Part shown: positions 2,406-29,073 of the stretch, one piece after another
Position numbering within the stretch: position 1 is the first letter of the stretch
Layout of the letters: every line of letters starts with the position of its first letter
Assembly (NCBI RefSeq): GCF_013376095.1
Contig: NZ_JAAMFN010000030.1
Coordinates: 1-56,286, forward strand
Length of the DNA: 56,286 nucleotides
Direction of reading: 5' to 3'
Source: Arthrobacter sp. SDTb3-6
GTDB taxonomy: Bacteria > Actinomycetota > Actinomycetes > Actinomycetales > Micrococcaceae
Notes under the pieces: generated by a model
The model's input: the letters and a program-made list of their open reading frames with translations, nothing else
The model's database searches: none
Told to the model about the DNA's origin: nothing
Made by a program: the position numbers and the translations under genes

Positions 2406-2448
2406 ATCCTACGGTGCCGCCGGGAGCGGGAACAGGGACCAAAGGCCT
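2406..2448 (-). promoter_or_regulatory. DevR-like box and -10 hexamer for PPOX paralogue 1
   Basis: On the minus strand AGGCCTTTGGTCCC (2448-2435) matches 11 of 14 positions of the mycobacterial DevR core GGGACTTTAGTCCC. Exactly 23 nt later comes TAGGAT (2411-2406), then 7 nt and the ATG at 2398. The geometry puts the box centre near -42.5 from a start site at or next to the ATG, so the transcript would be leaderless. Confidence 0.7.
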
Positions 2449-2557
2449 GAACAGCATGGAAACAGGCCTGCCGGGTCTTCCCGCGGCGACAACGCCGAGC
2501 GGCCCCAACCGTGAGGTTGGGGCCTCCCATGCCGCGGATTCCTTGGCAGGCTGGGTG

Positions 2558-3223
2558 TCATTCGGATCCGACAGTGATGTTGTTGCGGACGGCCCGGACG
2601 CCTGGCGAGGACCAGGCGACCAGGCCGGCCTGCTTCTTTTCGAGCCAGGTTGGCAGATGCCCGCTGAGCGTCACTTGATCGTCATCGACGTCGATGTGCA
2701 CCTCCTTGGCGGCCAGGGCCGCGTTGCGTGCCAAGGCGTCCTTGATCTTCTCTGCCAAGGCCTCGCGGGAGGGACGGACCGGCAGCGTGATGTGGTTCTC
2801 AACATAGCCCACGCCCGCGATCGCCCCCACGGCACGGACAGCCGCGTCCCGCTGAAAATTCCACGGCACGGAACCGGTGAGGGTGACGGTGTGGTTGCGC
2901 ACGCTGGCCTTGACGGATCCGGCGGGTATGACGGCGCTGGACTCCAACACGTGCGAGATCGATTGGGCGATGTCGCTGTCCGTGAGTGCAGCACCTGCAT
3001 AGTGGACGGTGAGTTCATCGGCTACGGCACTGACGCGCTTGACCCGCTGTGCCGCACGCCGGGCAGCCATCCTTTCAGGAAAGCTGCTGACGGTTCCAGT
3101 CAAGGTGACAGCGTGGTTCTCAACGCTGACGCCAATTCGGGCCGCTTGCACGTCCGGTGTCCATTGGAGTTCCGATTCAACTTCGCGCTGGATCTTGCGA
3201 TCTGTTGCCGTGTCTTGCTTCAT
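2558..3223 (-). CDS. Triple BON-domain protein
   Basis: A 221-residue soluble protein made of three successive BON domains, at about residues 5-75, 78-145 and 150-218. Each has the alpha-beta pattern ending in a V-T-L-(T/S)-G strand: AVTLTGTVSSF, TVTLTGSVPW and QVTLSGHLPTW. BON domains are small modules thought to bind membranes or other macromolecules and are common in osmotic and stress proteins. There is no signal peptide. It lies 67 bp downstream of the Hsp20 gene on the same strand and is probably co-transcribed with it from the shared box at 3845-3858. Confidence 0.85.
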   Translation of the reverse strand: MKQDTATDRKIQREVESELQWTPDVQAARIGVSVENHAVTLTGTVSSFPERMAARRAAQRVKRVSAVADELTVHYAGAALTDSDIAQSISHVLESSAVIPAGSVKASVRNHTVTLTGSVPWNFQRDAAVRAVGAIAGVGYVENHITLPVRPSREALAEKIKDALARNAALAAKEVHIDVDDDQVTLSGHLPTWLEKKQAGLVAWSSPGVRAVRNNITVGSE

Positions 3224-3290
3224 GTCTCGCTCATTTCAGTCTGGGGGTTAGCGCCGACGGTAGTGGTGCCTGCCGTGTAACTGGCGGTGG

Positions 3291-3758
3291 CTAGGCACGG
3301 GTGATGGCCACTTTTGCCGGGGCAGCCGGGACTGCCTTGGCCGGAAGCGGTGTGCGGACCTCCAGGATGCCGTCCTTGTAGGAGGCCTTGATGTCGGTGT
3401 CGCTGACGCCGTCCGGGAGCGCGATCCTCCGCTGCAGGGATCCGTAGTGGAACTCCGTGCGGTAGCTGCCGTCCGTGCGCTTCTCGGTCTTCTGCTCACG
3501 CGTGGCGCTGATGTTCAAGACTCCGTCGGCGATGGACACGTCGACATCCTTGTCGGGATCAACCCCGGGCAGTTCGGCGCGGACCACCAGCATGTTGTCT
3601 TCGATGGCTTCCTCGACGCGCATGGCGGTGTTCTCTGTGCCCCCGTCGAAAAGGCGCTGGAACGAATCCAAGACGCTAAACGGCGACCTCGTGAACAGAT
3701 CGAACGGGGCGGCCCATCGGGCGGCGTCAAAGGGGGTCCAACTCAGCAATTCAGTCAT
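3291..3758 (-). CDS. Hsp20/alpha-crystallin small heat-shock protein
   Basis: A 155-residue small heat-shock protein. The N-terminal arm (MTELLSWTPFDAARW) is followed by an alpha-crystallin domain from about residue 45 to 140, with VRAELPGVDPDKDVDVSI and the terminal G-I-L-E-V-R motif. Such proteins hold unfolded clients in ATP-independent oligomers. The start at 3758 is preceded by GGAGGAAG at good spacing; the longer upstream open frame has no support. In Mycobacterium tuberculosis the homologous class (HspX/Acr) is a main DevR target. Here a DevR-like box lies about 90 bp upstream, between this gene and the divergent P-type ATPase. Confidence 0.93.
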   Translation of the reverse strand: MTELLSWTPFDAARWAAPFDLFTRSPFSVLDSFQRLFDGGTENTAMRVEEAIEDNMLVVRAELPGVDPDKDVDVSIADGVLNISATREQKTEKRTDGSYRTEFHYGSLQRRIALPDGVSDTDIKASYKDGILEVRTPLPAKAVPAAPAKVAITRA

Positions 3759-3815
3759 GGTGCTTCCTCCTGTCAGTTGAAAGGTTGCGGCCGCGCAAGT
3801 GCAAGCCGTACTTCC

Positions 3816-3887
3816 AGTAGACGCCCGCCCGGGAGACGTGAATAGAGCCCAAAGCCCCTTTGCCCGTCCTGCCGCCGCTGGCACGAT
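3816..3887. promoter_or_regulatory. Shared DevR-like box between divergent hsp20 and P-type ATPase genes
   Basis: The box at 3845-3858 reads GGGGCTTTGGGCTC on the minus strand. Leftward, TCTACT (3821-3816, 4 of 6 to TATAAT) begins exactly 23 nt away and would serve hsp20. Rightward, CACGAT (3882-3887) begins 23 nt away and would serve the ATPase. One palindrome could therefore sit at about -42.5 for both promoters. The leftward promoter is the better supported of the two. Confidence 0.55.
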
Positions 3888-3926
3888 GAAGTGGAGATCA
3901 GTCACTACCCACCATGGATGGAGCCA

Positions 3927-6722
3927 ATGGCTACTGACAGTTCCGACGGGGTCCTCGCCGTGCCCGGTGGGGACGCAGGGGACCCTGTCCTGAATCCACA
4001 GGAGCCCCTCGAACGGCTGTTGCGTGACCTTCGGGGGCGCCGCGAGGGGCTCTCAGCACGCGAAAGCGAGCGGCGCCTGCTGGTCCATGGACGCAATGAA
4101 CTGGTCAGGCGCGGAGACAAGCATTGGTCAAGGGAGCTTGGAAAGCAGTTCGTGCATCCGCTTGCCCTCCTGCTGTCGATGGCCGCCGTTCTCTCGTTGG
4201 TGACCGGGACGATCCCGCTTTCCATTGCCATCGTCGCCGTGATTGTCCTCAACGCCTTGTTTGCTTTCTTTCAGGAACGCCACGCCGAGCGCGCCGTGGA
4301 GGCTTTGAGCGCCTACCTGCCGGCCCAGGCCAGGGTGCTGCGGGAGGGTGAGGAAGTTCTTGTCGACGCCGCACTGCTTGTGCCGGGCGACGTGATGATT
4401 GTCCGCGAGGGTGACCGGGTCTCCGCGGACGGACGGCTTCTGAACGGCTCACTGGAAATGGATGTCTCAACGCTCACCGGCGAGTCGCTCCCGGTATTCC
4501 GCACTGTCGACATCGGCATCGGCAGTGTCAGGCCAGGACCGCTACTGCAGGCGCCCGACGTTGTGTTCAGCGGCAGCTCGTGCACCGGCGGGGAGGCCGC
4601 GGCGGTGGTCTTTGCCACCGGGATGCAGTCGGAGATGGGCCGGATTGCGGCCCTCACCCAGCGGGCCGGGCATGACCTGAGCCCCCTGGAGAAGCAGGTG
4701 GGACGGGTGGCCCAGCTGATCGCCGTCGTCGCCGTCTCCATGGGACTCGCCTTCATCCCCGCCGGCATGCTCCTGACCGGCTTGTCGCTGGGGGACACCC
4801 TGAACTTTGCCATCGGGCTGCTGGTTGCCAACGTGCCCGAAGGGCTGCTGCCGACCATTACGCTTGCCCTGGCCGTTCGCGTCAGGCTTCTGGCGCGGCG
4901 CGGGACCCTTGTCAAGCGGATCTCGGCCGTGGAGACGCTGGGTTCCACGAGCGTGATCTGCACGGACAAGACAGGCACGCTGACCATGAACCGCATGAGG
5001 GTCCTCAACTACTGGATGCCGACTGGGACGGGCGGGCATCGCGCGGATGAGCTGCCGCCGCCCCACGACGTGTGGGTGGCTCGTTTCACCGCCGCCTGCG
5101 TCGCCTGCAACAACGCCCGTCTTGGACTCACGCCAGAAGCAGCCGAGGCTGGGGACCCAACCGAACTGGCGCTCCTGCACTTGGCCGCCGGCATGGGCGT
5201 GACAGCTGGCAGCCTCCACGCCGAGCGGCTGGCGCAATTCCACTTCGATCCAACGCTAAGGCGCATGTCCACCGTGGACAGGATTGGCCCCACCATCGCC
5301 GTCCACGCCAAGGGCGCGCCGGAGGACCTGCTCCCGCTGTGCACGCGCATTGCCGCCGCGGATGGCGACCGGGACCTCACGGAAGGGGACCGCGTGTCGA
5401 TCGGGGCGGCCGTCGACCGGTGGGCGGCCGAGGGCCTGCGGGTCCTGGCCTTGGCGGACAGGCCGACGCCGGACGCGCTCCCAGGGCTCCCGCGCGGGGC
5501 GGTGGAACGCGAGCTGACCTTCCTGGGGCTTGTCGCCATGTTTGACCCCCCGCGGCCGCAGGTTCCCACGGCCGTTGCACGTTGCCATTCGGCCGGCATC
5601 CGGTTGATCATCATCACGGGCGACAACGGGCTGACGGCGGCCGGCATCGCCCGGCGGGTGGGCATTGGCGGGGACGGGCTGCAAACCGTCACCGGCGACG
5701 AGCTGGACAGGATGAGCGAAGCGGGCCTTGACAAGTTGCTGGAAGCTGGCGGTGAGCTTATTTTTGCCCGCAGTTCCCCGGAAGCCAAGCTCCGCATCAC
5801 TGATGCCCTGCAGGACTTGGGACACGTTGTGGCCATGACCGGTGACGGCGTCAACGATGCACCTGCCCTGCGCCGGGCAGACATTGGCGTGGCGATGGGA
5901 AAGTCCGGGACCGATGTGGCCCGGGAGGCGGCAACCATGGTCCTCACGGATGACGACTTCGCCTCCATTGTCAGCGCTGTGGAGGCGGGGCGCCGGGTGT
6001 ATGACAACGTGCGCAAGTTCATCGTCTACATATTTGCCCATGCCACGCCCGAAGTCGTTCCGTTCCTCATCTACGCGGCATCCGGTGGCCAGGTGCCGCT
6101 ACCCCTGACCGTGATGCAGATCCTGGCCATAGACCTCTTTACCGAAACCCTGCCGGCGCTCGCGCTTGGGAGGGAGGCTGCCGAACCAGGCCTGATGCAG
6201 CGCCAGCCCCGCCCACGGACGGAGAACGTGATCAGCGCCTTGATGTTGGCCCGTGCCTGGGGTGTGCTCGGCGGCATGTCCGCACTCCTTGTTTCCGGGG
6301 CCTTCCTGGTCACGTTGCTGGCTGGCGGCTGGGTTCCGGGCAGGGACGTGTCAACGGGGCAGATGCACGTGCTCTGGCAGCAGGCCACCACGATGACCTT
6401 CCTCGGGATCGTAGCCTGCCAGGTGGGAACGGCCATGGCGGCCCGCACCCAGACCGTCTCGCTGCTCAGGATCGGGGTGACCACCAACCGCATTCTTCTC
6501 GGGGGCATCGTGTTTGAACTCGTGTTCAGCGCCGCCGTGGTGGGCATCGCGCCTTTGCAGCTGGTATTTGGCACTGCGGTTCCGGAACCGTGGCAGTTGC
6601 TGTTGCTCTTGCCGTTCCCGTTCCTTGTGTGGGGCGCCGATGAAGTGTTCAAGTCCTTCCGTCGCAAGCGGGCACACGCTGCCACGCCGGCTTCGCCAGG
6701 GACCTTGTCCCCTGTCACGTGA
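3927..6722 (+). CDS. Cation-transporting P-type ATPase (P2 type)
   Basis: About 931 residues with the full P2 architecture: N-terminal cation ATPase domain, TM1-2, actuator domain with TLTGES, TM3-4 containing [11 protein letters not shown], phosphorylation motif DKTGTLT (Asp near residue 347), nucleotide domain, hinge [11 protein letters not shown] and the C-terminal TM5-10 block ([14 protein letters not shown]). The TM4 sequence resembles Na,K/Ca-type pumps rather than heavy-metal pumps; the ion is not determined. The start is uncertain: GTG 3891, ATG 3918 and ATG 3927 are in frame. The predicted transcription start near 3894 argues against 3891. A P2 ATPase, CtpF, belongs to the mycobacterial DevR regulon. 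Confidence 0.88.
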
Positions 6723-6760
6723 AGGCGGACGGCCGTAGCCTGATTTAAGGAGGAATGATC

Positions 6761-7009
6761 ATGATGTATCAATGGGACGGGGCCGGCTGGGGGATCGGCC
6801 CATGGTTGGTCATGGCGGCGGTGATGCTCGTTGTCGGGGGTGCGGTGGCGGTAGCCATGGTGGTGCTGGCCAGGGGTTCATACTCCGGTCGGGGCGGGCT
6901 GACGCCGCACCACGACGCCGAGCGCATACTCACAGAACGTTTCGCCCGCGGGGAAATTGACGAGCAGGAGTTCCTTGCCCGGCGCGCGGCGCTCAGGAGC
7001 CCGGACTGA
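6761..7009 (+). CDS. Small membrane protein with C-terminal SHOCT domain
   Basis: An 82-residue protein. One hydrophobic helix (about residues 10-38) is followed by a charged C-terminal SHOCT motif, AERILTERFARGEIDEQEF, a short module often found at the end of small actinobacterial membrane proteins. The start at 6761 is chosen because AAGGAGG lies 7 nt upstream; an in-frame ATG at 6755 is too close to it. It follows the P-type ATPase by 38 bp on the same strand and may be co-transcribed. Function unknown. Confidence 0.8.
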   Translation: MMYQWDGAGWGIGPWLVMAAVMLVVGGAVAVAMVVLARGSYSGRGGLTPHHDAERILTERFARGEIDEQEFLARRAALRSPD

Positions 7010-9644: not shown

Positions 9645-10110
9645 GGTGGTTTCCTCTCTTGCCTGCGCCGTTTCCATCGTGGACTACCAGCACCGGGCAG
9701 TGGGCGTGCGCGATGCAGGCCGAGCTGACGGATCCCATGAGAAGTCCCCGGAATCCGCCGAAGCCGCGCCGGCCCAGGACGAGCATCATGGCGTGGCGGC
9801 TTTCCTCGATCAGCGTCTCGCGCGTGGGCCCTCGGACCAGCCGTGTTGTCAGGTTCTCCGGCCAATCGACCCCGAAGGCTTGTTCTACGGCCTGATCAAG
9901 CACCTTTTGGGCACTCTTTTCGTAGTCGACAAAGCCCACACCGTAGGGATCTTCGTAAATCGTGGGGACGGCCCAGCAGGTCAGTGCCTGGACTTGAGCC
10001 CCCATGCGTATGGCGAACCGTTCGGCCTGGCGCAGCGCCTCGATCGAGGACGCTGATCCGTCAACGCCGACCATCATGATCGGTGGTTCCCTGCGTTCAT
10101 TCATTTTCAT
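9637..10110 (-). CDS. Universal stress protein (single UspA domain)
   Basis: About 157 residues with one UspA domain. The first strand carries MMVGVDGSASSIEAL, and the ATP-binding loop GRRGFGGFRGLLMGSVSSAC has the G-x2-G-x9-G-S pattern of nucleotide-binding members. It overlaps the end of the phosphoketolase gene by about 14 bp. ATGs at 10113, 10110 and 10104 are in frame; 10110 has GAAGG at the best distance. It is one of six Usp genes in the island and lies between phosphoketolase and the cytochrome b genes. In mycobacteria several Usp genes are DevR-dependent. Confidence 0.9.
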   Translation of the reverse strand: MKMNERREPPIMMVGVDGSASSIEALRQAERFAIRMGAQVQALTCWAVPTIYEDPYGVGFVDYEKSAQKVLDQAVEQAFGVDWPENLTTRLVRGPTRETLIEESRHAMMLVLGRRGFGGFRGLLMGSVSSACIAHAHCPVLVVHDGNGAGKRGNHHA

Positions 10111-12559
10111 CATTACCTTCGACATTTCGGTTGATGCCGGCGCCACCCGTGGGGGGAGGCGTCCATGTCCAGTCGCGGATCTCGGGGAGGTCTTCAAAAT
10201 GTTCGTGCACGTAGGCTTCGTGTCTTGTTAGCATTTCCCCGCAGTGGGCCCGCAGCCGGTCCACCCCGGGGATGAAGCGGTTGATGCGGTTCAAGGCCTC
10301 AAGCACCAGGTGGTAGCGGCTCATCCTGTTCAGCACCACCATGTCAAACGGGGTTGTCGTGGTTCCTTGTTCGTTGTATCCCCGGACGTGGAACCGGCCT
10401 GGACTTTTCCTGCCGTGCAGGAGTTGATGGAACGCCCGGGCGTATCCGTGCCAGGCCACGACCACGTCACGTTCCGCGGTGAAAAGCGCGTCAAATGCGT
10501 CGTCGGACAGGCCGTGCGGATGGACGTCCCGCGGCGGCAGCACCAGCAGGTCCATGACGTTGACCACCCTGACACGCAACTTCGGCACGTGGCGTTGGAG
10601 CAGCCAGGCGGCCGCCAGTGTTTCCTCGGTGGGAACGTCGCCGACACAGGCCAAGACAATGTCCGGCTCGGCTGCTCCAGCGTTCCCGGCCCAGGACCAG
10701 ACGGAGGCACCGGCAGCGGCATGTGCCCGGGCGTCGTCGAGGTTCAGGTACTGCGGGTGGACCTGCTTGTCCACGACGATCAGGTTCACATGGTCCTTGC
10801 TCGAGAGAACGCGGGCCGCGGTGGCGAGCAAGGTGTTGGAGTCCGGTGGCAGGTAGACGCGGACCACGGAACCGGAAAGCGACAGCACGGTGTCAATCAG
10901 GCCCGGACCTTGATGGCTGAAGCCGTTATGGTCGTTGCGCCAACAGGTGGAGGTCAGGAGGATGTTCAGGCTTGGAACGGGCCTGCGCCACGGCAGTTCC
11001 CGGGCATGCTGGAGCCACTTGACATGCTGGACGGTCATCGACGCACTCACCATGGCAAAAGCCTCATAGCTGGCAAAGAACCCATGCCGCCCCGTCAGCA
11101 GGTACCCCTCCAGCCATCCCTGGCATAGGTGCTCGGAAAGGACCTCCATGACCCGACCGTGCGGGGAAACGTGGTCATCCCCTTCCCGGGACGGTTCCAT
11201 GAGGCATCTATCGGTGGCTTCGAAAACAGCGCCGAGCCGGTTGCTGTTGGTCTCATCGGGGCAGAAGAGCCGGAATCGGGGGTCTCGGGCGGTATCCGTG
11301 TAGATGTCCCTGAACATTTCGCCCAGCGGCCTGGTGGTTTCGTGCTTGACGGCCCCCGGAGCGGGCACGTCAAGAGCGTAAAGATCGAGGGGACGCAGCG
11401 GCAGCGGGGCGCTGCCGCTGATGCCGTTCGCCGCGGGGTTGGCGCCCATGCGCAGCTTTCCCTGCGGGACGAGGGCAGCCAGTTCTGGGACCAGCCGCCC
11501 GGCGTCGTCAAACAGGGTTTCCGGTTTGTAGGAGAGCAGCCAGGACTCCAGCTGGGCCAAGTGGGCGGGATTCTCCCGCACACCGGTTAGCGGCACCTGG
11601 TGGGCGCGGAAGGTGCCTTCCACCTGCATGCCATCCACTTCACGTGGGCCGGTCCACCCCTTGGGCGTGCGCAGGATGATCGCCGGCCAGCGTGCCGGGC
11701 CGCTCACGCCATGCCGACGCGCTTGTTTTTGTATTGCGAGAATCCCGGCATGGGCGTCCTCGAGGGCCTTGGCCAGTTGCGGGTGGACCACGGCGGGGTC
11801 GCTGCCGGAAACAACGACGGGGTCCCAGCCGTGTGCCCGGAGCAGGTCCAGGACCTGCCCGTCGGACTGTCGGCCGAGCACGGTGGGTCCGGAAATCTTC
11901 CAGCCGTTGAGGTGCAGGATGGGCAGCACGGCCCCGTCCCGGCTGGGATTCAGGAATGCCGGCGCCTTCCACGAAGCTTCCAGGGGCCCGGTTTCAGCTT
12001 CGCCGTCGCCCACGACGCAGGCCGCGATGAGCCCGGGGTTGTCCAGTACCGCTCCTGCGGCGTGCATGAGCGAGTATCCCAGTTCCCCTCCTTCGTGGAT
12101 GGAACCGGGGGTGGGCGGGCCGACGTGGCTGGGTATGCCCCCGGGGGTTGAGAATTGGCGGATGAGGCGGCGGAGCCCGTCGGCGTCCCGGCCGATCTGC
12201 GGGTACGTTTCGGAGTAGCTCCCCTCGAGGTAGAGGTTTGCCACCACTGCAGGTCCGCCGTGGCCAGGGCCGGCCACGAACAACAATTGGGCGCCCGTCT
12301 TGTTGATCAGCCGGTTGAGGTGCGCGTAGATCAACGACAGCCCCGGGCTGGTTCCCCAATGTCCAAGCAGCCGCGGCTTGATGTCGGCAACGCCCAGCCT
12401 GTGACGGAGCAGTGCGTTTTCCTGTAGGTATATTTGCACCACCGTCAAGTAGTTGGCCGCATCCCAGTACCGGCCCAAGAGGGCCCACTCCTCGTGCAAA
12501 CCGGCGGACGTGGCTGCGTTTGGAGCATGCTGCGTGAAGGGCTGGCGAATGCTGTTCAA
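10097..12559 (-). CDS. xfp: Phosphoketolase (Xfp family)
   Basis: An 820-residue thiamine-diphosphate enzyme that cleaves xylulose 5-phosphate or fructose 6-phosphate with phosphate to acetyl phosphate and an aldose phosphate. LLGHWGTSPGLS near the N-terminus and GDGEAETGPLE, the TPP/Mg site, are diagnostic, and the length matches the family. The frame is open to 12934, but family similarity begins just after 12559. There a TTG codon is preceded by GAAGGGGG six bases upstream, so I take TTG as the start. It is the first gene of an operon with usp, a small membrane protein, cytochrome b, its partner and the VIT transporter. Acetyl phosphate would allow ATP gain during oxygen limitation. Confidence 0.92.
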   Translation of the reverse strand: MNSIRQPFTQHAPNAATSAGLHEEWALLGRYWDAANYLTVVQIYLQENALLRHRLGVADIKPRLLGHWGTSPGLSLIYAHLNRLINKTGAQLLFVAGPGHGGPAVVANLYLEGSYSETYPQIGRDADGLRRLIRQFSTPGGIPSHVGPPTPGSIHEGGELGYSLMHAAGAVLDNPGLIAACVVGDGEAETGPLEASWKAPAFLNPSRDGAVLPILHLNGWKISGPTVLGRQSDGQVLDLLRAHGWDPVVVSGSDPAVVHPQLAKALEDAHAGILAIQKQARRHGVSGPARWPAIILRTPKGWTGPREVDGMQVEGTFRAHQVPLTGVRENPAHLAQLESWLLSYKPETLFDDAGRLVPELAALVPQGKLRMGANPAANGISGSAPLPLRPLDLYALDVPAPGAVKHETTRPLGEMFRDIYTDTARDPRFRLFCPDETNSNRLGAVFEATDRCLMEPSREGDDHVSPHGRVMEVLSEHLCQGWLEGYLLTGRHGFFASYEAFAMVSASMTVQHVKWLQHARELPWRRPVPSLNILLTSTCWRNDHNGFSHQGPGLIDTVLSLSGSVVRVYLPPDSNTLLATAARVLSSKDHVNLIVVDKQVHPQYLNLDDARAHAAAGASVWSWAGNAGAAEPDIVLACVGDVPTEETLAAAWLLQRHVPKLRVRVVNVMDLLVLPPRDVHPHGLSDDAFDALFTAERDVVVAWHGYARAFHQLLHGRKSPGRFHVRGYNEQGTTTTPFDMVVLNRMSRYHLVLEALNRINRFIPGVDRLRAHCGEMLTRHEAYVHEHFEDLPEIRDWTWTPPPTGGAGINRNVEGNDENE

Positions 12560-12621: not shown

Positions 12622-12664
12622 AGCCTTCCACCGCTTCCGAGTCGGCGTTAGGGTCCTTGTACCC
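12622..12664 (-). promoter_or_regulatory. Possible DevR-like box upstream of phosphoketolase
   Basis: GGGTCCTTGTACCC at 12651-12664 has perfect GGGT/ACCC arms. On the minus strand the hexamer AAGGCT (12627-12622) begins exactly 23 nt beyond it, keeping A2 and T6 of a -10 element. The predicted start near 12615 would give a leader of about 55 nt with the Shine-Dalgarno before TTG 12559. The box core fits the mycobacterial consensus less well than the others, so this one is tentative. The rest of the divergent gap 12560-12803 shows no other clear signal. Confidence 0.35.
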
Positions 12665-17562: not shown

Positions 17563-18429
17563 ATGTCCAACACCATCGTCGTCGGCAGCGACGGGTCACC
17601 CGCGTCCAAGGCCGCAGCGGACTGGGCTGCCCGGCGAGCGCACCGGTACTGCAGCGACATGCGCCTTGTCTTCACCGTACCTGACGCCACGGACCCGGGC
17701 TTGGCATCCCGGTCCAGGGCCGGTTTCGAAGCGGCTGCCCACACCCTTGATGAGGAACGGGCCCGGTTGGCGGCACTGTTTCCAGGATTGACGATCCATA
17801 CGACCATCAAACACGGTGAACCCGTCGCGGTCCTGGGGGGACTTTCCCATGAGGCCGGCATGGTGGTGGTGGGCAGCGACAAGCCCGCCGACGCACATGG
17901 CGAGGGCTTCGGCGCCGTCGGCCCGCAACTAGTGATCCGCAGTGCCTGTACCGTGGCGATCATTCCCGTCCTCGAAACAGCCCGAACCGGCGTGGTCGTG
18001 GGGGTTGACGGCTCCCCGGAAGCGGACCTGGCACTCCAGGTGGCCTCGGGAGAGGCAGAGATGTCCGGGCAGGCACTGACCGTTGTACACGCCTTGACCC
18101 ACACCGGACCGGGGACGCCGGGCAAGCCCCGGGACGGGCAGGTAATGCCTGGCGCATTGGAGGCCGGAGAAGAGGTCCTCGCAGCCGCCGTGGCTGCCAT
18201 CGCGGCCCGCCATCCACGGCTGGAGGTTCACCGCGTGCTTGACACACGGCACACCCCTGCCCAAGCCTTGGCCTCGGCCGCCGGGGGATCGGGATTGCTG
18301 GTTGTGGGCAGCCGGGGCCGCAAGAGCGTCAGGCACATGCGGCCCGGCGCCATCGGCTCGGTTGTCCTGGCCCGCATTGGCTGCCCCCTGCTCGTGACCA
18401 CGGGCCCAGGCACGTCAGGAAATGCCTAG
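17563..18429 (+). CDS. Tandem-domain universal stress protein
   Basis: A 288-residue protein with two UspA domains, about residues 1-140 and 143-285. Domain 1 begins TIVVGSDGSPASKAA but its loop (VVVGSDKPADAHGEGFG) lacks the usual glycine pattern. Domain 2 has VVVGVDGSPEADLAL and GSRGRKSVRHMRPGAIGS, which keeps it. AGGAG lies just upstream of ATG 17563. Tandem Usp proteins such as Rv2623 of M. tuberculosis bind ATP and belong to the DevR regulon. The 3' end overlaps the convergent ATPase gene by 4 bp. Confidence 0.92.
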   Translation: MSNTIVVGSDGSPASKAAADWAARRAHRYCSDMRLVFTVPDATDPGLASRSRAGFEAAAHTLDEERARLAALFPGLTIHTTIKHGEPVAVLGGLSHEAGMVVVGSDKPADAHGEGFGAVGPQLVIRSACTVAIIPVLETARTGVVVGVDGSPEADLALQVASGEAEMSGQALTVVHALTHTGPGTPGKPRDGQVMPGALEAGEEVLAAAVAAIAARHPRLEVHRVLDTRHTPAQALASAAGGSGLLVVGSRGRKSVRHMRPGAIGSVVLARIGCPLLVTTGPGTSGNA

Positions 18430-21526: not shown

Positions 21527-22597
21527 TCAGGACTGGACGGGAACGCGTTCGATGATGACCTTCAGGGCCTTCGTTTCCGCGGCTCGGGCAAAGGTGTCGT
21601 AGGCCTCAAGCGCCTGGTCGAAGGTGAAGGTGTGGGTGGCGAACTTGGCCGCCGGGATTTTGTGCCGGGCCACGAGCTTGAGCAGCATCGGGGTGGTGTT
21701 GGTATTGACCAGGCCCATGCTGATGTTGATGTTCCTGATCCACAGTTCCTGGAGGGGAAGCGCGACGCCGGTGCCGTGGACGCCGACATTGGCAACGTGG
21801 CCGCCCGGGCGGACCAGGGCAAGGGCCATGGAAAAGGTTTCAGGCAGGCCTACGGCCTCAATGGCCACGTCCACCCCTGCACCATCAGTCATGGCGGTTA
21901 CCTTTTCCTGCCACCCGGTGCTGCCGGAGTCGACGGCATCCGTAGCCCCAAACTCCATTGCCTGACGAAGCCTGTTGGCGTCGCGGTCAATCGCGACGAT
22001 GGTTCCGGCACCGCACAATCCGGCCGTGGTGATGGCGGCCAACCCCACGGGGCCGGACCCGATGACGGCAACGACGTCCCCCGGGCTCACCTTGCCGGCG
22101 AGGACGCCGATCTCAAAGCCGGTGGGGAGAATGTCGGAGAGCATGACTGCTTCGACGTTGCTGACGCCCTCCGGGACTTTGTACAGGGAGTTGTCTGCAT
22201 AGGGAACCCGGACATACTCTGCCTGCGTACCGTCGATGAGGTGACCGAAGACCCAGCCGATGCCTGCCTGGCCCTCTTCGCCCAGGCAGTGGGAATAGAG
22301 GCCCGAACGGCAGTTCGGGCAGTGGCCGCAGGACTTGATGCAGGAAATCAGCACCCGGTCGTCCACCACAAAATCGTGCACTCCCGGACCAGTTTCCACC
22401 ACCGTGCCCACTCCTTCGTGGCCAAGGATTCGCCCCGGCTGCACGGCGGGGACATCGCCCTTGAGGATGTGAAGGTCGGTGCCGCAAATGGTGGTGGTGT
22501 CAACTTGGACTATGGCGTCGCCTGGGTTGAGGACCTCAGGACGGGGTGCCTCCGACCAGGACATGCTGCCGGGGCCATGGTAGATCAGCGCTTTCAT
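21527..22597 (-). CDS. Zinc-dependent alcohol dehydrogenase (MDR family)
   Basis: A 356-residue medium-chain dehydrogenase. Catalytic zinc ligands lie in TICGTDLHI and GRILGHEGVG; the structural zinc site is CIKSCGHCPNCRSGLYSHC; the Rossmann motif is VIGSGPVGLAAI near residue 170. The substrate is probably a short alcohol or aldehyde, with NAD as cofactor. The start at 22597 (MKALIYHGPG) is the family start; the upstream extension to 22651 is not. It heads the operon with the Fno-like reductase, usp and metal ATPase, and has a DevR-like box 84 bp upstream. Confidence 0.9.
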   Translation of the reverse strand: MKALIYHGPGSMSWSEAPRPEVLNPGDAIVQVDTTTICGTDLHILKGDVPAVQPGRILGHEGVGTVVETGPGVHDFVVDDRVLISCIKSCGHCPNCRSGLYSHCLGEEGQAGIGWVFGHLIDGTQAEYVRVPYADNSLYKVPEGVSNVEAVMLSDILPTGFEIGVLAGKVSPGDVVAVIGSGPVGLAAITTAGLCGAGTIVAIDRDANRLRQAMEFGATDAVDSGSTGWQEKVTAMTDGAGVDVAIEAVGLPETFSMALALVRPGGHVANVGVHGTGVALPLQELWIRNINISMGLVNTNTTPMLLKLVARHKIPAAKFATHTFTFDQALEAYDTFARAAETKALKVIIERVPVQS

Positions 22598-22651: not shown

Positions 22652-22694
22652 ACGCTACGGCGGACGTACGCCGGTGGTTAGGGTCTTTGGGCCC
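22652..22694 (-). promoter_or_regulatory. DevR-like box and -10 hexamer for the zinc dehydrogenase operon
   Basis: GGGTCTTTGGGCCC (22681-22694, plus strand) matches the DevR core in 11 of 14 positions. On the minus strand TAGCGT (22657-22652) begins exactly 23 nt beyond the box. The predicted start near 22645 gives a leader of about 48 nt before ATG 22597. The box lies in the gap after PPOX paralogue 2 ends at 22708. Confidence 0.65.
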
Positions 22695-22707: not shown

Positions 22708-23178
22708 CTATTCCGGCGCTGCGCGGTGCGTATTTGCCTGGGCGGTCCACCATTCCGCAGGCTGGGTGACTTGGAACCGGCGCCCCGTCACCGCTGTTGG
22801 CACGATGCGCACAAAATTGTCCTTCCGGCCCGAATGCCACGGGAAGAGCCGGAGCGAAAAACTGTCGAGCAGGTCTTCGGTGGACGTGAGCAGTTGGCCT
22901 GAGCCCTTGACCACCACACTCCAGGCAATGCCCGTGTCCGGGTCGACGCCGTCGGCTTCCAACGCGACCGGGTGGCCGCCACGGACGGCTGTGAGTTTGG
23001 TGCCTTCGCCGGTCCGAAAGATGAGCGTGCCGTGGTCCACGGTGTAATTGATGGGGAAGATGTCCGGATGGTCCCCGTCCCACACTGCGAGCCGGCCCAC
23101 GGATACGCCGCGAAGCAGGGCCCAGCATTCGTGGATGGCCAGGTCTTCCGTTCGTGTGGCTGCTGGTTTGTGCGTCAT
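22708..23178 (-). CDS. PPOX-family split-barrel flavoprotein-like protein (paralogue 2)
   Basis: A 156-residue paralogue of the proteins at 1928 and 26839, with CWALLRGVSVGRLAVWDGD, DIFPINYTVDH and IAWSVVVKGSGQL, then VTGRRFQV. The same FMN/F420 split-barrel fold is expected. ATG 23178 follows a -10-like hexamer by 6 nt and has no Shine-Dalgarno, so translation is probably leaderless. It is divergent from the sensor kinase gene. Confidence 0.83.
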   Translation of the reverse strand: MTHKPAATRTEDLAIHECWALLRGVSVGRLAVWDGDHPDIFPINYTVDHGTLIFRTGEGTKLTAVRGGHPVALEADGVDPDTGIAWSVVVKGSGQLLTSTEDLLDSFSLRLFPWHSGRKDNFVRIVPTAVTGRRFQVTQPAEWWTAQANTHRAAPE

Positions 23179-23184
23179 GGGCTG

Positions 23185-23227
23185 AGCGTATGGCATCCTG
23201 CCCTGTCCCGGTAGGGCCATAGGGCCC
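23185..23227 (-). promoter_or_regulatory. DevR-like box and -10 hexamer for PPOX paralogue 2
   Basis: On the minus strand GGGCCCTATGGCCC (23227-23214), 23 nt, TACGCT (23190-23185), 6 nt, then ATG 23178. The box shares 9 of 14 positions with the mycobacterial core but 13 of 14 with the box of the usp gene at 29079. Confidence 0.65.
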
Positions 23228-23237: not shown

Positions 23238-25048
<1,811 letters not shown>

Positions 25049-25063: not shown

Positions 25064-25720
25064 CTATTTCCGGGTGATGTAGACGGCTGCCTGCGTCCGC
25101 CGCTCGAAACCAAGCTTGGCCAATAGCGAGGAAACGTAGTTCTTGACCGTCTTCTCGGCGAGGAAGAGCTCCTGGCCGATTTGGCGGTTGGTCATGCCTT
25201 GTCCTATCAGTGCCAGGACCCTGCGCTCCTGGGCTGTCAGGGTGGCGGTGCGGGGATCCAGCTGGGCGGGCTCACTGAGCCCTTCAATGATCTTCTGCCG
25301 AAGGCCCCGGTCGAAGAGCGATTCGCCGTGGGCAGCGAGCTTGATCGCCGTGACCAGGTCAGTGCCGCCGATTTCCTTCAGGACGTACCCGGACGCGCCG
25401 GCCAGCACGGCCCCCCTGAGGGCTTGTTCGTCGTCGTAGCTGGTCAGGATCAGGCACTTGAGGGAGGGGTCAACGGAGCGCACGTCACGGCACACCTCAA
25501 TGCCGGTACCGTCGGGCAGCCGGGCATCGAGCACGGAGACGTCAGGGCGCAGCGCCGGGATCAGCCTGGCCGCTTCCGCCGCGGAGCCGGACGAACCCAC
25601 CACTGTGAAGCCATGTCCCTCCAGCAGGTCCTGGAGTCCCAACCTCACGAGTTCGTGGTCGTCAAGGACGAAGACGCGGATGGCCGGCGGAGCGCCGGAG
25701 GCCTGCCGTGCTGTGTCCAT
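25064..25720 (-). CDS. devR: DevR/DosR-type NarL-family response regulator
   Basis: A 218-residue regulator. The receiver domain has the acidic pair in VFVLDDHE, phospho-acceptor Asp65 in SVLDARLPDGTG and LTSYDD. A LuxR-type helix-turn-helix follows at about residues 150-210. Its recognition segment LAEKTVKNYVSSLLAKLG is, as I recall the sequence, almost the same as in M. tuberculosis DevR, including the Lys and Asn that contact the GGGAC half-site. ATG 25720 has GAGGGA upstream; ATG 25738 is an alternative. It is convergent to devS, not in an operon with it, and is the obvious activator for the boxes listed here. Confidence 0.93.
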   Translation of the reverse strand: MDTARQASGAPPAIRVFVLDDHELVRLGLQDLLEGHGFTVVGSSGSAAEAARLIPALRPDVSVLDARLPDGTGIEVCRDVRSVDPSLKCLILTSYDDEQALRGAVLAGASGYVLKEIGGTDLVTAIKLAAHGESLFDRGLRQKIIEGLSEPAQLDPRTATLTAQERRVLALIGQGMTNRQIGQELFLAEKTVKNYVSSLLAKLGFERRTQAAVYITRK

Positions 25721-25756
25721 GGTTTCCCTCACTTCCATCGCTTAAGCGTGCCAGCC

Positions 25757-25770
25757 CCACCTGAAGGTGG
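25757..25770. promoter_or_regulatory. 14-bp palindrome CCACCT-GA-AGGTGG upstream of devR
   Basis: The perfect 6-bp arms lie 18 bp before ATG 25738 and 36 bp before ATG 25720. Between them and 25738 lies CACGCT (25750-25745), a -10-like hexamer 6 nt from that ATG. The palindrome would fall in the promoter spacer, where a repressor could act, or it could be a short hairpin after the DUF3040 gene. Confidence 0.35.
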
Positions 25771-25855
25771 CGCTGAACCAGGTGCAAATTTTGATGCCGC
25801 TGGCGAAGGCCCATTCTCCAACAGGCAGGTCCGCCGGGCAAGGCGTCCTGGCAGG

Positions 25856-26182
25856 TTACTGGTCTGCGGCCTTCCTGTCGTGGGCCGCATTCCAGACATG
25901 TGCACGCCGCGTGCCGAAAGGGGTGCGCGGAGGCGACGCGACAAACGCGCCGGCAGTCATTGCGGCAAAGGCCACGGCGCCCATGGGGGCTGACCTGAAG
26001 GCAAGGGCAAGGACCATCAGGGCGATGCCAATTCCCATGCCTGCTGTGCCCAGCACGAGGCGACAGACAGCGCTGCCCGGTTTGCCGGGCGCGCCCAACG
26101 CCCGCGCCAGTCGGGGGCTTCCATCCTTTAAGTCCTCTTCGAGTTCGTGAAGGATGCGCAATTCATGCTCAGAGAGTTCCAT
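25856..26182 (-). CDS. DUF3040 small membrane protein
   Basis: A 108-residue protein. It starts MELSEHELRILHELEEDLK, the DUF3040 signature of actinobacteria, and has two adjacent membrane helices at about residues 38-80 followed by a charged tail. GGAAGG precedes ATG 26182. Function unknown; DUF3040 genes are scattered in actinobacterial genomes and are not confined to the hypoxia regulon. Confidence 0.88.
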   Translation of the reverse strand: MELSEHELRILHELEEDLKDGSPRLARALGAPGKPGSAVCRLVLGTAGMGIGIALMVLALAFRSAPMGAVAFAAMTAGAFVASPPRTPFGTRRAHVWNAAHDRKAADQ

Positions 26183-26245
26183 GATGCCTTCCTTGGGTCT
26201 TTCCTCAGTTGTGAATACGAAGCAATGGCGAGGCGTCAGCGGCCT

Positions 26246-26263
26246 GGCCCCGTTAACGGGGCC
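26246..26263. terminator. Perfect 18-bp palindrome after the SPW gene
   Basis: GGCCCCGTTAACGGGGCC is fully self-complementary. It lies 22 bp after the stop of the SPW-repeat gene (26285) and 64 bp before the DUF3040 start, both on the minus strand. It could be a terminator hairpin without a U tract, or an operator. Confidence 0.4.
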
Positions 26264-26284
26264 GGCCGGCGCTTCCCGTTCCCC

Positions 26285-26641
26285 TTAGTGCGATGGGATC
26301 GCGTGGTGGTGGGCGGCAGTGCTCGGGCTGATGGCCAGGCCGGTGGCAACCACCACAACGGCCCCGGCGATCCATGACGTCCAGGCCGCTCCGGAGTGTC
26401 CAGTGTAGGATCCGGCCCAGGGTGAAACGACCAGGGCTGCGCCCAGGACGACCTGTAGCCACTCAATCCATGGCGCGTCCGGTGCGGCAAGGTTGACTGC
26501 ACCGCTGGCTGCGATGAGCACGCCGAGGGCAACCATCAGCCACGTCGATGACGTGGTCTGTGTTGTCCAGAGTGTGGAAAGGGCGGCCACTGCTCCTGCC
26601 GCCACGGCAGCCCAGTCCTGCCAACGGGTCCATTTCTTCAT
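26285..26641 (-). CDS. SPW-repeat membrane protein
   Basis: A 118-residue protein with four membrane helices arranged as two SPW repeats: KKWTRWQDWAAVAAG with the first pair, then WIEWLQVVLGAALVVSPWAG with the second. SPW proteins are small bacterial membrane proteins of unknown function. AAGGAGG lies about nine bases before ATG 26641. Two abutting DevR-like boxes upstream place it in the same regulon. Confidence 0.87.
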   Translation of the reverse strand: MKKWTRWQDWAAVAAGAVAALSTLWTTQTTSSTWLMVALGVLIAASGAVNLAAPDAPWIEWLQVVLGAALVVSPWAGSYTGHSGAAWTSWIAGAVVVVATGLAISPSTAAHHHAIPSH

Positions 26642-26689: not shown

Positions 26690-26732
26690 ATGGTCGCTCC
26701 GGCAATGGCCCAAAGCCACGGTCCAAAGTCCC
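26690..26732 (-). promoter_or_regulatory. Two abutting DevR-like boxes and -10 hexamer for the SPW gene
   Basis: GGGACTTTGGACCG (26732-26719, minus strand) matches the DevR core in 11 of 14 positions and has the best left half-site in the window. GTGGCTTTGGGCCA (26719-26706) abuts it. From the first box 23 nt leads to GACCAT (26695-26690), which keeps A2 and T6. The strong Shine-Dalgarno before 26641 shows that this transcript has a leader. Confidence 0.62.
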
Positions 26733-26789
26733 CAATGCGGGGTGGATGTTCGGTACCGGTTCCCGGCGGTTGTATAAAGTGTGCAACAG

Positions 26790-26832
26790 TGGACCTTGGA
26801 CCCTAGGCACCAGCACGGATCGGCGCCATGAT
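26790..26832 (+). promoter_or_regulatory. DevR-like box and -10 hexamer for PPOX paralogue 3
   Basis: TGGACCTTGGACCC (26790-26803) matches 10 of 14 core positions. Exactly 23 nt later comes CATGAT (26827-26832), then 6 nt and ATG 26839. No Shine-Dalgarno fits, so the mRNA is probably leaderless. Confidence 0.7.
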
Positions 26833-26838
26833 CAGTCC

Positions 26839-27261
26839 ATGAACCGTGATGAGGATCCTGGAGTTGTCTTGACCTGTGACGAGGCTTGGAGGCTGCTTGA
26901 GGGCAGCCGGTTTGGCCGGCTGGCCGTGAGCGTCGCCAACCAACCGGACGTTTTTCCGCTGAATTTCTTCGCTTCGGGGGACAAGGTCTGGATCCGGACC
27001 AATCCAGGCAGCAAGCTTGCCGAGCTGACCATTAATTCCCGGGTTGCGTTTGAGGCCGACGAAGTCAGCGACGGTGCCGCCTGGAGCGTCGTGGTCAAAG
27101 GCACCGCCAGAATCCTGGAGTCCCAAACGGAAATTGACGCCGCCGACCGTCTCCCGCTTGAGCCCTGGCTTAAAACCCGCAAGTGGACGTACGTGGAAAT
27201 CACCCCATCCAGCGTGAGCGGACGTAAGTTCCAGCTGGGTGCGGAGCCGGAGCGCTACTAA
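26839..27261 (+). CDS. PPOX-family split-barrel flavoprotein-like protein (paralogue 3)
   Basis: A 140-residue paralogue, somewhat shorter than the other two. It has CDEAWRLLEGSRFGRLAVSV, DVFPLNFFASG and AAWSVVVKGTARI, with VSGRKFQLG at the end. The start at 26839 is set by the box geometry and by family similarity; the long in-frame extension to 26548 is upstream of the promoter and is not coding. The last 4 bp overlap the convergent AarF-like gene. Confidence 0.83.
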   Translation: MNRDEDPGVVLTCDEAWRLLEGSRFGRLAVSVANQPDVFPLNFFASGDKVWIRTNPGSKLAELTINSRVAFEADEVSDGAAWSVVVKGTARILESQTEIDAADRLPLEPWLKTRKWTYVEITPSSVSGRKFQLGAEPERY

Positions 27262-28901
27262 CGGCGCGCCCGCAACCCTGGCCGGCCCGTCCAGGCCAGA
27301 TACCCGCCCATGACGCCCATCGCCCCCACTCCGCCAGCCAGCAGCCTGTCTTGCCAGGAACGCAGGTGTTCACGGTCGGCGGCCGTCAAGTCGCCGATGC
27401 CGCGGATGAAGGCTGCAAGCAGAAGCCCTGCAAGCAACCGATTGCCGATTCGTTCGGCCCGGGCAACCAGGGGCACGATTTCCTCCGTGCGCAGGTGGAC
27501 CTCCACGCCGCGGTCAAGCTGTTGCAGGATTCGTTCCAGCCGCTCTGGGAATTCGGCGCCCAGGTCGGCCGCTTCGAGGCCAAGTTTCTTGATCATTGCG
27601 GGCAACCTGTTTGGGCTGAGCCGTTCCAGCGCCAGCCGCGTGGCAAAGGGCTTGAGAACTTCGCCGAGATTGAACTCCGGGTTCAGGCGCACTCCCATGC
27701 CTTCGGTCATGACGACCATTTTCGCGAGCATGGCAATTTCGCTGGACAGCTGCAGGTGGTGGCTGCGTAGGATGGCCACCAATTCGTTGATCAACGGGGC
27801 GAGGTGAATTTCGCCCAGGCGCCTGCCTTGGTACTGCTCCATAAAATGGGCCACATCCAGCGTCAGGAGGGCGCGGTCAGGTGCGGCACCGTTGACAGAG
27901 AGGTCTAGCAAGGCACGGCTGATCCGCCCAGCGTCGTTCCGGCTGAAGGCGAGCAGGAGCCTGCCCAGCCGGTCCCTGAGCTGTTCGTCCACTTCACCGA
28001 CCATCCCAAAGTCAATCAGGCCAATTCGTCCGCCCGATTCAACAAAGAAATTCCCAGGGTGTGGGTCGGCGTGGAAGAACCCGTCTTCAAAGATCATCTT
28101 GGCAGCCGCGTTGGCGGCCAGGGCGGCCAGGTTGTCCCTGTCAACGGCAGCCATCGCGGCGACTTGCGGATCGTCGATCCTCAGGCCATATATCCTTTCG
28201 ATCGTCAAGACCCGGGATGTGGTGGTGTCCCAGTATATTTTCGGTATGTGGATGCCGGTGCGGGTCGAAAAATTCCGGGCGAACCTCTCCGCGTTGCGTC
28301 CTTCGTGCAAATAATCCAACTCGGCCCGCAGGGTTTCCGAGAAAGCGGCAGCGACGCCCTCAACATTAAAGTCGGCGGCCGCCGCCCAATTACGGCTGGC
28401 CCGGTGCGCCAGGTTTTGCAGGATCTCCAGATCCTCCTGCACCTGGGACACGACGCCGGGCCGGCGCACCTTCACCACGACGGCGGTGCCATCGTGCAGT
28501 GTGGCCGCGTGCGCCTGGCCGATTGACGCGCTGGCCAGAGGCGTGTCGGTGAACGTGCCAAAGACTTCATCCGGAGGCGCCCCCAGCTCCTGTTCAATGA
28601 GGGACCGGACAACAGCCGTCGGCACGGGCGGGGCACCATCCTGCAGCCTTGACAATGCCACGATGTAGTCCCGGGGCAGGATGTCAGGGCGGGTTGACAG
28701 TACCTGCCCGAGCTTGATGAACGTGGGTCCCAGCTCCTCCAGCGCCAGTACCAGGCGGTCCGGATTGGCCAGCGCGCCCGTCCCGCGCGGCAGGGTGCCC
28801 AGGCGCAACCGTCCAAGGCCCAATGCGGCAGCCACTGACCCCAACCCGTGGCGGGCCAGTATCTCGGCAACTTGGGCGTAGCGTTCGAAGTGGTTGGGCA
28901 T
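27258..28901 (-). CDS. AarF/UbiB (ABC1) atypical kinase-like protein
   Basis: A 547-residue member of the UbiB/ABC1 family. It has FIKLGQVLSTRPDILP, the KxGQ signature, near residue 80. The Ala-rich loop is LASASIGQAHAA, the catalytic segments are FFHADPHPGNFF and LIDFGMVGE, and two C-terminal membrane helices lie at about residues 490-540. UbiB proteins support quinone biosynthesis, perhaps through ATPase activity; actinobacteria use menaquinone, so the client here is unclear. ATG 28901 has no Shine-Dalgarno and lies 6 nt after TACGCT, itself 23 nt after a DevR-like box. Quinone supply would fit the nearby cytochrome b and nitrate reductase. Confidence 0.9.
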   Translation of the reverse strand: MPNHFERYAQVAEILARHGLGSVAAALGLGRLRLGTLPRGTGALANPDRLVLALEELGPTFIKLGQVLSTRPDILPRDYIVALSRLQDGAPPVPTAVVRSLIEQELGAPPDEVFGTFTDTPLASASIGQAHAATLHDGTAVVVKVRRPGVVSQVQEDLEILQNLAHRASRNWAAAADFNVEGVAAAFSETLRAELDYLHEGRNAERFARNFSTRTGIHIPKIYWDTTTSRVLTIERIYGLRIDDPQVAAMAAVDRDNLAALAANAAAKMIFEDGFFHADPHPGNFFVESGGRIGLIDFGMVGEVDEQLRDRLGRLLLAFSRNDAGRISRALLDLSVNGAAPDRALLTLDVAHFMEQYQGRRLGEIHLAPLINELVAILRSHHLQLSSEIAMLAKMVVMTEGMGVRLNPEFNLGEVLKPFATRLALERLSPNRLPAMIKKLGLEAADLGAEFPERLERILQQLDRGVEVHLRTEEIVPLVARAERIGNRLLAGLLLAAFIRGIGDLTAADREHLRSWQDRLLAGGVGAMGVMGGYLAWTGRPGLRARR

Positions 28902-28907
28902 GGGGGC

Positions 28908-28950
28908 AGCGTAGCCCCCGAACCGCGTGAATTCCAGAGGCCAAGGTCAC
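28908..28950 (-). promoter_or_regulatory. DevR-like box and -10 hexamer for the AarF-like gene
   Basis: On the minus strand GTGACCTTGGCCTC (28950-28937) matches 9 of 14 core positions and is close to the box at 26790. Exactly 23 nt later lies TACGCT (28913-28908), the same hexamer as at PPOX paralogue 2, then 6 nt and ATG 28901. Confidence 0.55.
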
Positions 28951-29030
28951 TGCCGTGGTGATGCAGGCCCGGGTGAGGCTGCTACGCTCCCGGGCCTGCC
29001 GGGCCATGGCTCCACTGCCCGCCCCCAAGA

Positions 29031-29073
29031 GGGCCCTTTGGCCCTGTACACCGTCGCGCGGCCCCAGCAGTAT
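29031..29073 (+). promoter_or_regulatory. DevR-like box and -10 hexamer for the usp gene at 29079
   Basis: GGGCCCTTTGGCCC (29031-29044), 23 nt, CAGTAT (29068-29073), 5 nt, then ATG 29079. The box has full GGGCC/GGCCC arms. The hexamer is weak but keeps A2 and T6. Confidence 0.6.

Follow-up and report, generated by a model that had tools for sequence, protein, structure and literature searches.

Spacing of the predicted promoters

Which regulator switches on the stress genes in the left part of a 56,286-bp contig of Arthrobacter sp. SDTb3-6, and through what kind of promoter? This contig (NZ_JAAMFN010000030.1; hereafter the window) is one, C69, of the 144 contigs of a 4.31-Mb genome. A first-pass annotation had listed eight promoter-like sites in it, each composed of a 14-bp box GGGNC-N4-GNCCC, a spacer of exactly 23 nucleotides (N23), and a -10-type hexamer. 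The window also encodes a DevS-type kinase and a DevR-type response regulator. Judging from the sequences, it is very probable that the sites are operators of the DevR encoded at 25064-25738, in class-II-like promoters of the DevR/DosR/OsdR type that serve a low-oxygen stress island. The boxes, the spacing, the gene content, the identity of the recognition helix, and the single-box arrangement were read directly from the sequences.

All of the eight boxes were found at the reported positions with the 23-nt distance, and each lies upstream of a gene and is oriented towards it. Compared with the eight fixed bases of the core, three of the eight boxes match fully, four have one mismatch, and the 28937 box has two mismatches. 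The hexamer had been described as nearly always having A at position 2 and T at position 6; A2 is present in seven and T6 in all eight. On the minus strand, the predicted promoter at 2406-2448 (box 2435-2448, AGGCCTTTGGTCCC; N23; -10 TAGGAT, 2406-2411) precedes a PNPOx-like gene (1928-2398), whose ATG lies 7 nt after the hexamer and which is predicted to be leaderless. The next one (3816-3858, minus strand; box 3845-3858, GGGGCTTTGGGCTC; N23; hexamer TCTACT) precedes the Hsp20 gene (3291-3758), whose leader has an AGGAGG motif. The predicted promoter at 22652-22694 (minus strand; box 22681, GGGCCCAAAGACCC; N23; -10 TAGCGT) is followed by a 54-nt leader and an alcohol dehydrogenase gene (21527-22597), and then by same-strand genes for an F420-type oxidoreductase, a universal stress protein (USP), and a P-type ATPase. 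At 23185-23227 (minus strand; box 23214, GGGCCCTATGGCCC; N23; -10 TACGCT), the ATG of another PNPOx-like gene (22708-23178), also predicted to be leaderless, lies 6 nt after the predicted -10. A weaker site at 26690-26732 (minus strand; box 26719, GGGACTTTGGACCG; N23; GACCAT) stands before the gene of an SPW membrane protein (26288-26641) with AAGGAGG in its leader. The predicted promoter at 26790-26832 (plus strand; box TGGACCTTGGACCC; N23; CATGAT) and that at 28908-28950 (minus strand; box 28937, GTGACCTTGGCCTC; N23; -10 TACGCT) precede a third PNPOx-like gene (26839-27261) and an ABC1 kinase-like gene (27258-28901), respectively; both genes have an ATG 6 nt after the hexamer and are predicted to be leaderless. 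Finally, the predicted promoter at 29031-29073 (plus strand; box GGGCCCTTTGGCCC; N23; CAGTAT) precedes a USP gene, which starts at 29079 or 29112 and ends at 29591 and is followed by narGHJI from 29680.

Is the constant spacing more than chance, as the first-pass annotation had argued? I counted boxes with at most one mismatch followed by TANNNT at spacings of 5 to 59, making no use of the listed sites. In the window, six pairs were found at spacing 23, while the mean over the other 54 spacings was 0.41. The same peak recurs in 80 loci (1.51 Mb) around the DevR genes of other Actinomycetes, with 32 pairs at spacing 23 against a mean of 4.0 (standard deviation 2.5) at the other spacings. The peak is smaller in the 59 of these loci that lie outside the Arthrobacter group (11 against 2.2), and it is gone in them when two box mismatches are allowed (26 against 17.9).

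A weight matrix was then made from 21 sites of the Arthrobacter-type loci L031-L051, with no sequence of the window in it. Its ten best sites in the window at spacing 23 are the eight listed ones and two others. One of the two (12622-12664, minus strand; box 12651, GGGTACAAGGACCC; N23; AAGGCT) had been noted as a weak site and precedes a phosphoketolase gene (about 10097-12559). The other (6699-6741, plus strand; box GGGACCTTGTCCCC; N23; -10 TAGCCT) is an addition to the earlier list and is followed, after a leader with AGGAGG, by the gene of a SHOCT-domain protein (6755-7009). R1, a sequence model built on these 21 sites, gave eight matches at E ≤ 10 in the 4.31-Mb genome, with 150 of 1895 first-look candidates scored, and seven of the eight are within the window. 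Since the palindrome at 29031 was matched on both strands, the seven are six distinct sites, five of which had been listed. Only two matches have an E value below 0.05. The probability that random placement would put six of the seven distinct sites inside the window is about 3e-11. The match outside the window (C1:37100) has no proper box when the sequence is judged by eye.

Orthologous promoters in relatives

Are these promoters conserved? For part of this comparison, at most the best 14 matches per gene were taken, and the loci L174 and L177 were left out. The 23-nt spacing is kept in at least one orthologue for the alcohol dehydrogenase, phosphoketolase, 2398 PNPOx, 26839 PNPOx, and ABC1 promoters. 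In the closest orthologues of the 23178 PNPOx gene, the letters of the box and the spacer vary but the arrangement box-N23-TANNNT-N6/7-ATG is kept, with one case of N24 (L035). The same arrangement is kept in the orthologues of the 2398 PNPOx gene. The two nearest orthologues of the 26839 PNPOx gene keep N23-GATGAT-N6-ATG, and the nearest orthologue of the ABC1 gene keeps N23-TACGCT-N6-ATG. In the alcohol dehydrogenase orthologues in which the site was seen, the leader varies from 46 to 71 nt. The nearest orthologue of the SPW gene keeps a box with AACCAT at 24 nt. In several orthologues of the 29031 USP promoter, a box is still followed by CAGCAT at a distance of 23 or 24 nt, but the ATG at 5 nt is missing. 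Few orthologues were available for Hsp20 (three matches), SPW (five), and ABC1 (three). The SHOCT-domain gene after the 6699 site has no orthologue among the DevR loci compared, and no convincing site was found upstream of many more distant homologues of the target genes. The claim of a spacing of exactly 23 nt holds in that 23 prevails. A minority of the sites in relatives truly have 24 nt, and some others only seem to, because their register is shifted by one base.

Several orthologues of the phosphoketolase gene keep N23-NANNNT. It was also observed that the phosphoketolase promoters of seven Actinoplanes and Micromonospora-type loci (L061, L063, L071-L074, and L077) combine a box with an NANNNT hexamer 23 nt away. 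Thus, phosphoketolase may be an old target of the DevR regulon.

Genome-wide and class-wide counts

Is the geometry peculiar to this lineage? With zero mismatches, the loose pattern box-N23-NANNNT occurs 12 times in the genome, three of them in the window. A T stands just after the box in these three and in none of the other nine. Specificity was gained by adding this T and TANNNT to the pattern, or by using R1. The strict form, box-T-N22-TANNNT, was compared with the same pattern three bases shorter (spacing 20). In 38 genomes (this one and 37 relatives), it occurs 25 times at spacing 23 and twice at 20. In 197 Actinomycete genomes, this one included, 79 sites in 51 genomes were found at spacing 23 and 15 sites in 14 genomes at 20. 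Since 51 of 197 genomes across the class have the strict form at 23, the box-N23-hexamer geometry is a property of the Actinomycete class and not of this lineage. The counts thus point to a spacing rule which the tuberculosis dormancy switch shares with the rest of the class and which can be recognised without any data beyond the DNA sequence. With this rule, DevR targets are predicted, and the start codons of unannotated genomes can be corrected.

DevR and DevS

The DevS-type sensor kinase (23297-25048, plus strand) has a GAF domain, a HisKA_3 domain, and an HATPase domain. The GAF domain (residues about 57-203) best matches the structures of mycobacterial DevS-type heme GAF domains (E values of 3e-52 to 8e-48), and from this sequence match to mycobacterial domains it is predicted to be of the heme type. 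The DevR-type response regulator (25064-25738, minus strand) is closest to proteins of Arthrobacter, with 86% identity to that of A. silviterrae and 82% to that of Arthrobacter sp. H35-D1. Its best match in the PDB is M. tuberculosis DevR (3c3w, E value of 2.2e-63), and the recognition helix AEKTVKNYVS is identical in the two proteins, in line with the first-pass annotation, which had matched the helix to this type of site. The helix is exactly conserved in 19 of the 21 loci L031-L051, with I for V in the other two, and it was found in 54 of the 59 loci outside the Arthrobacter group; in the other five, the motif scan did not find it.

The gene content around devR also fits such a regulon. Hsp20, USPs, and nitrate respiration, which are expected of a DevR-type regulon, are all present in the window, and the gene content resembles the known DevR/OsdR targets in so far as they are described in PMC5069765. 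In 10 relatives that have devR and an assembly of at most four contigs, 24 of 29 model matches (E ≤ 0.5; hand count) lie within 100 kb of devR, a count biased towards orthologous neighbours by the R1 training sites, which lay within about 10 kb of devR. The detectable DevR regulon in this genus is mostly one island.

Single boxes instead of pairs

Two close sites have been proposed as the minimum for activation by DosR (as cited in PMC5360333). Do the Arthrobacter-type promoters have such pairs? The Arthrobacter-type set consists of L031-L051, L172-L183, and the window; it contains one Cryobacterium record (L051, two sites), L174 and L177 duplicate L031 and L032, and its site totals of 42 and 43 result from differing duplicate rules. 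In the 59 loci outside the group, pairs of an exact box and a box with no more than one mismatch were sorted by the distance between their starts; distances of 22-23 bp occur 27 times, while the mean is about one per distance. A second box lies 21-23 bp upstream of the proximal box in 6 of 15 promoters of the other lineages (control 0.95) but in only 2 of 55 Arthrobacter-type sites (control 2.5). Fisher's test of this contrast gives p of about 8e-4, to be read with the sites of relatives being partly common by descent and hence not independent.

The lack of a second box goes beyond the content of the first-pass annotation, and so does the ATG 6-8 nt after the -10. The former is a more distinctive trait of the Arthrobacter relatives than the shift in the operator sequence described below. 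A second box was not treated as defining for the regulon, because single-box targets have been reported; DrrS is described in PMC5360333 as a single-site promoter and is likened there to class-II CRP promoters. If the single-box promoters work, the requirement of two close boxes for DosR activation is not general. A harmless soil genus thereby becomes available for the study of an apparently stripped-down, one-box form of the switch.

Start codons close to the -10 hexamer

In the Arthrobacter-type set, 27 of the 43 sites that have TANNNT at 23 nt have an ATG 6-8 nt after the hexamer, as compared with 1 of 11 others. At every spacing from 12 to 35, I looked for boxes of no more than one mismatch followed by TANNNT and, 4-9 nt further on, by an ATG with an open reading frame (ORF) of 100 codons. 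The scan gave 28 cases at spacing 23, nine at 24, and two at all other spacings together. Part of the 24s are register shifts, and looser boxes and hexamers raise the background.

Is the leaderless geometry a trait of the whole regulon? This was weakened on recounting. The 27 sites belong to 23 PNPOx homologues, two ABC1 genes, one alcohol-dehydrogenase-type gene, and one other gene. Since 23 of 27 are PNPOx homologues, the contrast with the other lineages may reflect one gene family, and the geometry may go with the PNPOx and ABC1 genes as such. Four of the eight sites in the window have it, namely those of three PNPOx genes and one ABC1 gene (2398, 23178, 26839, and 28901), each with at least one agreeing orthologue, and leaderless mRNAs are predicted for these four genes. 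A fifth leaderless start, at 29079 after the 29031 site, is doubtful because its orthologues lack the ATG at 5 nt and an in-frame ATG exists at 29112.

Operator sequence

The first-pass annotation had proposed a lineage-specific operator with a CCTTTGG centre. A real but modest shift was found; TTTG/CAAA-type centres occur in 11 of 43 Arthrobacter-type sites and in 8 of 77 sites class-wide (p of about 0.04). The boxes of the class also include CTTTGG, CCTTGG, and CCAAAG centres, and the M. smegmatis DosR consensus in PMC6448022 likewise has CTT at this place. The idea of a lineage-specific operator has only modest support. G at box position 6 is found in 4 of 42 Arthrobacter-type sites as compared with 28 of 77 class-wide, and T-rich centres face the promoter in a ratio of 31:7 as compared with 38:27. 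Of 42 sites, 41 have a T immediately behind the box, while only 10 have an A immediately before it; both are at 25% over all boxes. This asymmetry suggests that the T may be part of the -35 position rather than of the palindrome.

Weighing the assignment

Several observations count against the assignment of the sites to DevR. A genome scan for box-N23-NANNNT, which the first-pass annotation had proposed, gave no enrichment when one mismatch was allowed, with 487 matches in the genome as compared with 706 for the reversed pattern. Targets are thus not recognisable by the consensus alone, whose loose form is outnumbered by the reversed pattern, and it was rejected as a genome-wide diagnostic. 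Even for the strict form, the reversed pattern (hand counts) occurs about 47 times at spacing 23 and about 55 times at 20 in the 197 genomes, and 10 and 14 times in the 38 genomes. Measured by this control, the surplus of the strict form at spacing 23 is less marked (79 against about 47, and 25 against 10) than in the comparison of spacings. The forward strict pattern at spacing 20 falls well below this control (15 against about 55, and 2 against 14). The reversed pattern is apparently the commoner one by itself, and therefore the comparison of spacings was taken as the fairer control. The hexamer of the 3845 site, TCTACT, lacks A2. The DevR query has 22 further matches in its own genome. The co-occurrence of DevR and the sites was also a weak test; among the same-genus genomes, the best model match has a strict site in 15 of the 18 that have DevR and in 1 of the 4 that lack it (Fisher p of about 0.046), and only 4 of the 22 genomes are without a DevR match above 42% identity. 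Among these four, the best matches of G007 and G013 have two box mismatches, G012 has a strict site, and G010 has no match.

Moreover, the 560 nt upstream of the window devR have no box with a -10 at 23-24 nt, unlike those of several relatives. Relatives such as L034, L035, L036, L038, L042, L044, L046, and L183 carry a box with the exact core ahead of devR. The only candidate in the window is a one-mismatch box about 520 nt away, which lies before the DUF3040 gene and has no hexamer at 23 nt; nothing better was found for an autoregulatory box. Such a box was not treated as defining for a DevR-type regulon. The DUF3040 gene (25856-26182) was observed to precede devR within this upstream region (25739-26300, minus strand).

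Could another regulator of the NarL/LuxR family bind the boxes, DevR being a mere neighbour? The genome has candidate proteins for this, since the DevR query has 23 matches in it, itself included. It is nevertheless very unlikely, given that the best paralogue shares only 37% identity with DevR, that the model matches of the relatives gather within 100 kb of devR (24 of 29), and that OsdR, a distant DevR orthologue, binds boxes of the same form in the data of PMC5069765. It is very unlikely that DevR represses from these boxes, for example as a redox-controlled repressor next to the -35. A box abutting the -35 could exclude sigma region 4, and several hexamers are weak, so the direction of regulation is not readable from the sequence; a fixed distance to a weak -10 is nonetheless the layout of activation, and mycobacterial DevR/DosR activates from the same position in the promoters described in PMC3029386 and PMC5360333.

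GGGNC...GNCCC palindromes may be common in GC-rich DNA, and the eight sites could be a selection from it with a coincidental spacing. Loose matches are indeed plentiful, with 214 oriented boxes of at most one mismatch in the window, besides the 487 box-N23-NANNNT matches in the genome. This explanation is hardly credible, since the spacing peak recurs in sequences that the first-pass annotation had not seen, the matrix trained outside the window recovers the sites, and orthologous promoters preserve the spacing. Thus, DevR-type, class-II-like promoters are the preferred reading, and the mechanism put forward in the first-pass annotation has a good basis, with binding by DevR as a prediction.

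The proposed switch and known systems

The following scheme is predicted for the island, including DNA binding, induction, transcription start sites, and leaderless translation. DevS, through its predicted heme GAF domain, would sense low oxygen, nitric oxide, or carbon monoxide, as its family suggests, and phosphorylate DevR. Phosphorylated DevR would bind the 14-bp palindrome GGGNC-N4-GNCCC, placed directly upstream of the -35 position. From the box to the sigma-A type -10, which is NANNNT and in many cases TANNNT, there are 23 bp or sometimes 24. DevR would make up for the poor -35 and touch RNA polymerase in the manner of a class-II activator. With a transcription start 6-7 nt behind the -10, the box centre would be near -42.5. 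The first-pass annotation had put the centre there, a figure which I take as an assumption; the fixed, activator-like distance to a sigma-70-type -10 holds, while the value of -42.5 depends on the assumed start site. The island would thus be switched on, with Hsp20, the USPs, three PNPOx-like flavoproteins, phosphoketolase, alcohol dehydrogenase, and the ABC1 kinase; read-through might add narGHJI. Arthrobacter-type promoters seem to need only one box, and the start codons of the PNPOx and ABC1 genes coincide with the predicted transcription start.

A further step can be proposed tentatively, and it is rather doubtful: the DevR regulon in Arthrobacter relatives may have been rebuilt on single boxes, with a rigid box-23/24-hexamer-6/8-ATG arrangement at the PNPOx and ABC1 genes and about 35 nt from box to ATG. 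If this is true, oxygen control would work without two cooperating boxes, and the PNPOx and ABC1 genes would in addition dispense with a Shine-Dalgarno sequence. DevR alone would set both transcription and the form of the mRNA at these genes.

How does this compare with known systems? The DevR regulon of M. tuberculosis has the same palindromic core and includes Hsp20, USP, P-type ATPase, and nitrate genes. The window shares with it the identical recognition helix, a DevS-type kinase next door, and the predicted placement of the proximal box. It differs in having no second box, in targets that are mostly in one island, and in the predicted leaderless mRNAs of three PNPOx genes and one ABC1 gene. 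Proximal DosR sites of M. tuberculosis overlap the -35 at a canonical distance from the start in the promoters treated in PMC5360333 and PMC3029386, and the DevR targets in PMC3029386 have one, two, or more boxes, with cooperative binding being important. The stringent DosR consensus of M. smegmatis given in PMC6448022, GGGACTTNNGNCCCT, agrees in the core, is T-rich in the first half of its centre, and has a trailing T like that in 41 of 42 sites here. The OsdR consensus of S. coelicolor, AGGGCCGATCGGCCCT, also has the GGGNC-N4-GNCCC core, and its sites lie around a similar gene cluster in which the DevR orthologue is found amid USP, alcohol dehydrogenase, and stress genes (as presented in PMC5069765). 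In contrast, the centre is GATC, not CTTT/CCTT, and two S. coelicolor sites listed in that paper are at -81 and -100 from the gene starts and thus not leaderless. In the titles and abstracts searched, with some of the result lists viewed in part, no DevR regulon in Arthrobacter relatives was found, and DosR together with Micrococcaceae gave no paper. The operator and the fixed distance are already known in kind, while the single-box form in Arthrobacter relatives and the leaderless geometry at PNPOx and ABC1 genes are plausibly a new variant.

Other features of the window

From the left end to about 29.6 kb, the window encodes PNPOx-like flavoproteins, a BON protein, a VIT-family protein, a cytochrome b-like protein, and the SPW membrane protein, as well as Hsp20, P-type ATPases, USPs, phosphoketolase, alcohol dehydrogenase, and the F420-type oxidoreductase. 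The DevS-type kinase, the DevR-type regulator, and the ABC1 kinase complete this part. To the right of about 29.6 kb, the nitrate reductase operon is followed by an MFS transporter gene. The gap between the USP gene and narG (29591-29680, about 90 nt) folds less stably than most of its shuffled versions. Since it has no unusually stable fold, the 29031 promoter may read through into narGHJI. I infer the control of nar by DevR only from the position of the genes.

Far outside the island, at 55076-55118 (plus strand), a box (CGGCCTGCGGGCCC) is followed by N23, TAGATT, and an ATG 7 nt further on. The ORF matches the alcohol dehydrogenase query, a usual type of target, and the site is absent from the list of the trained matrix. 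The overall guanine-cytosine (GC) content is 0.647 in 1-29600 and 0.690 in 29600-56286, and the third-position GC of likely genes is about 0.70-0.81 on the left and 0.77-0.92 on the right of 29.6 kb. The DevR island may have a different origin or a different codon selection from the right part of the window. The P-type ATPase on the minus strand (18426-20320) is split into two overlapping ORFs, one with the HAD part (18426-19550) and the other with the E1-E2 part (19529-20320), which is an apparent frameshift or assembly error.

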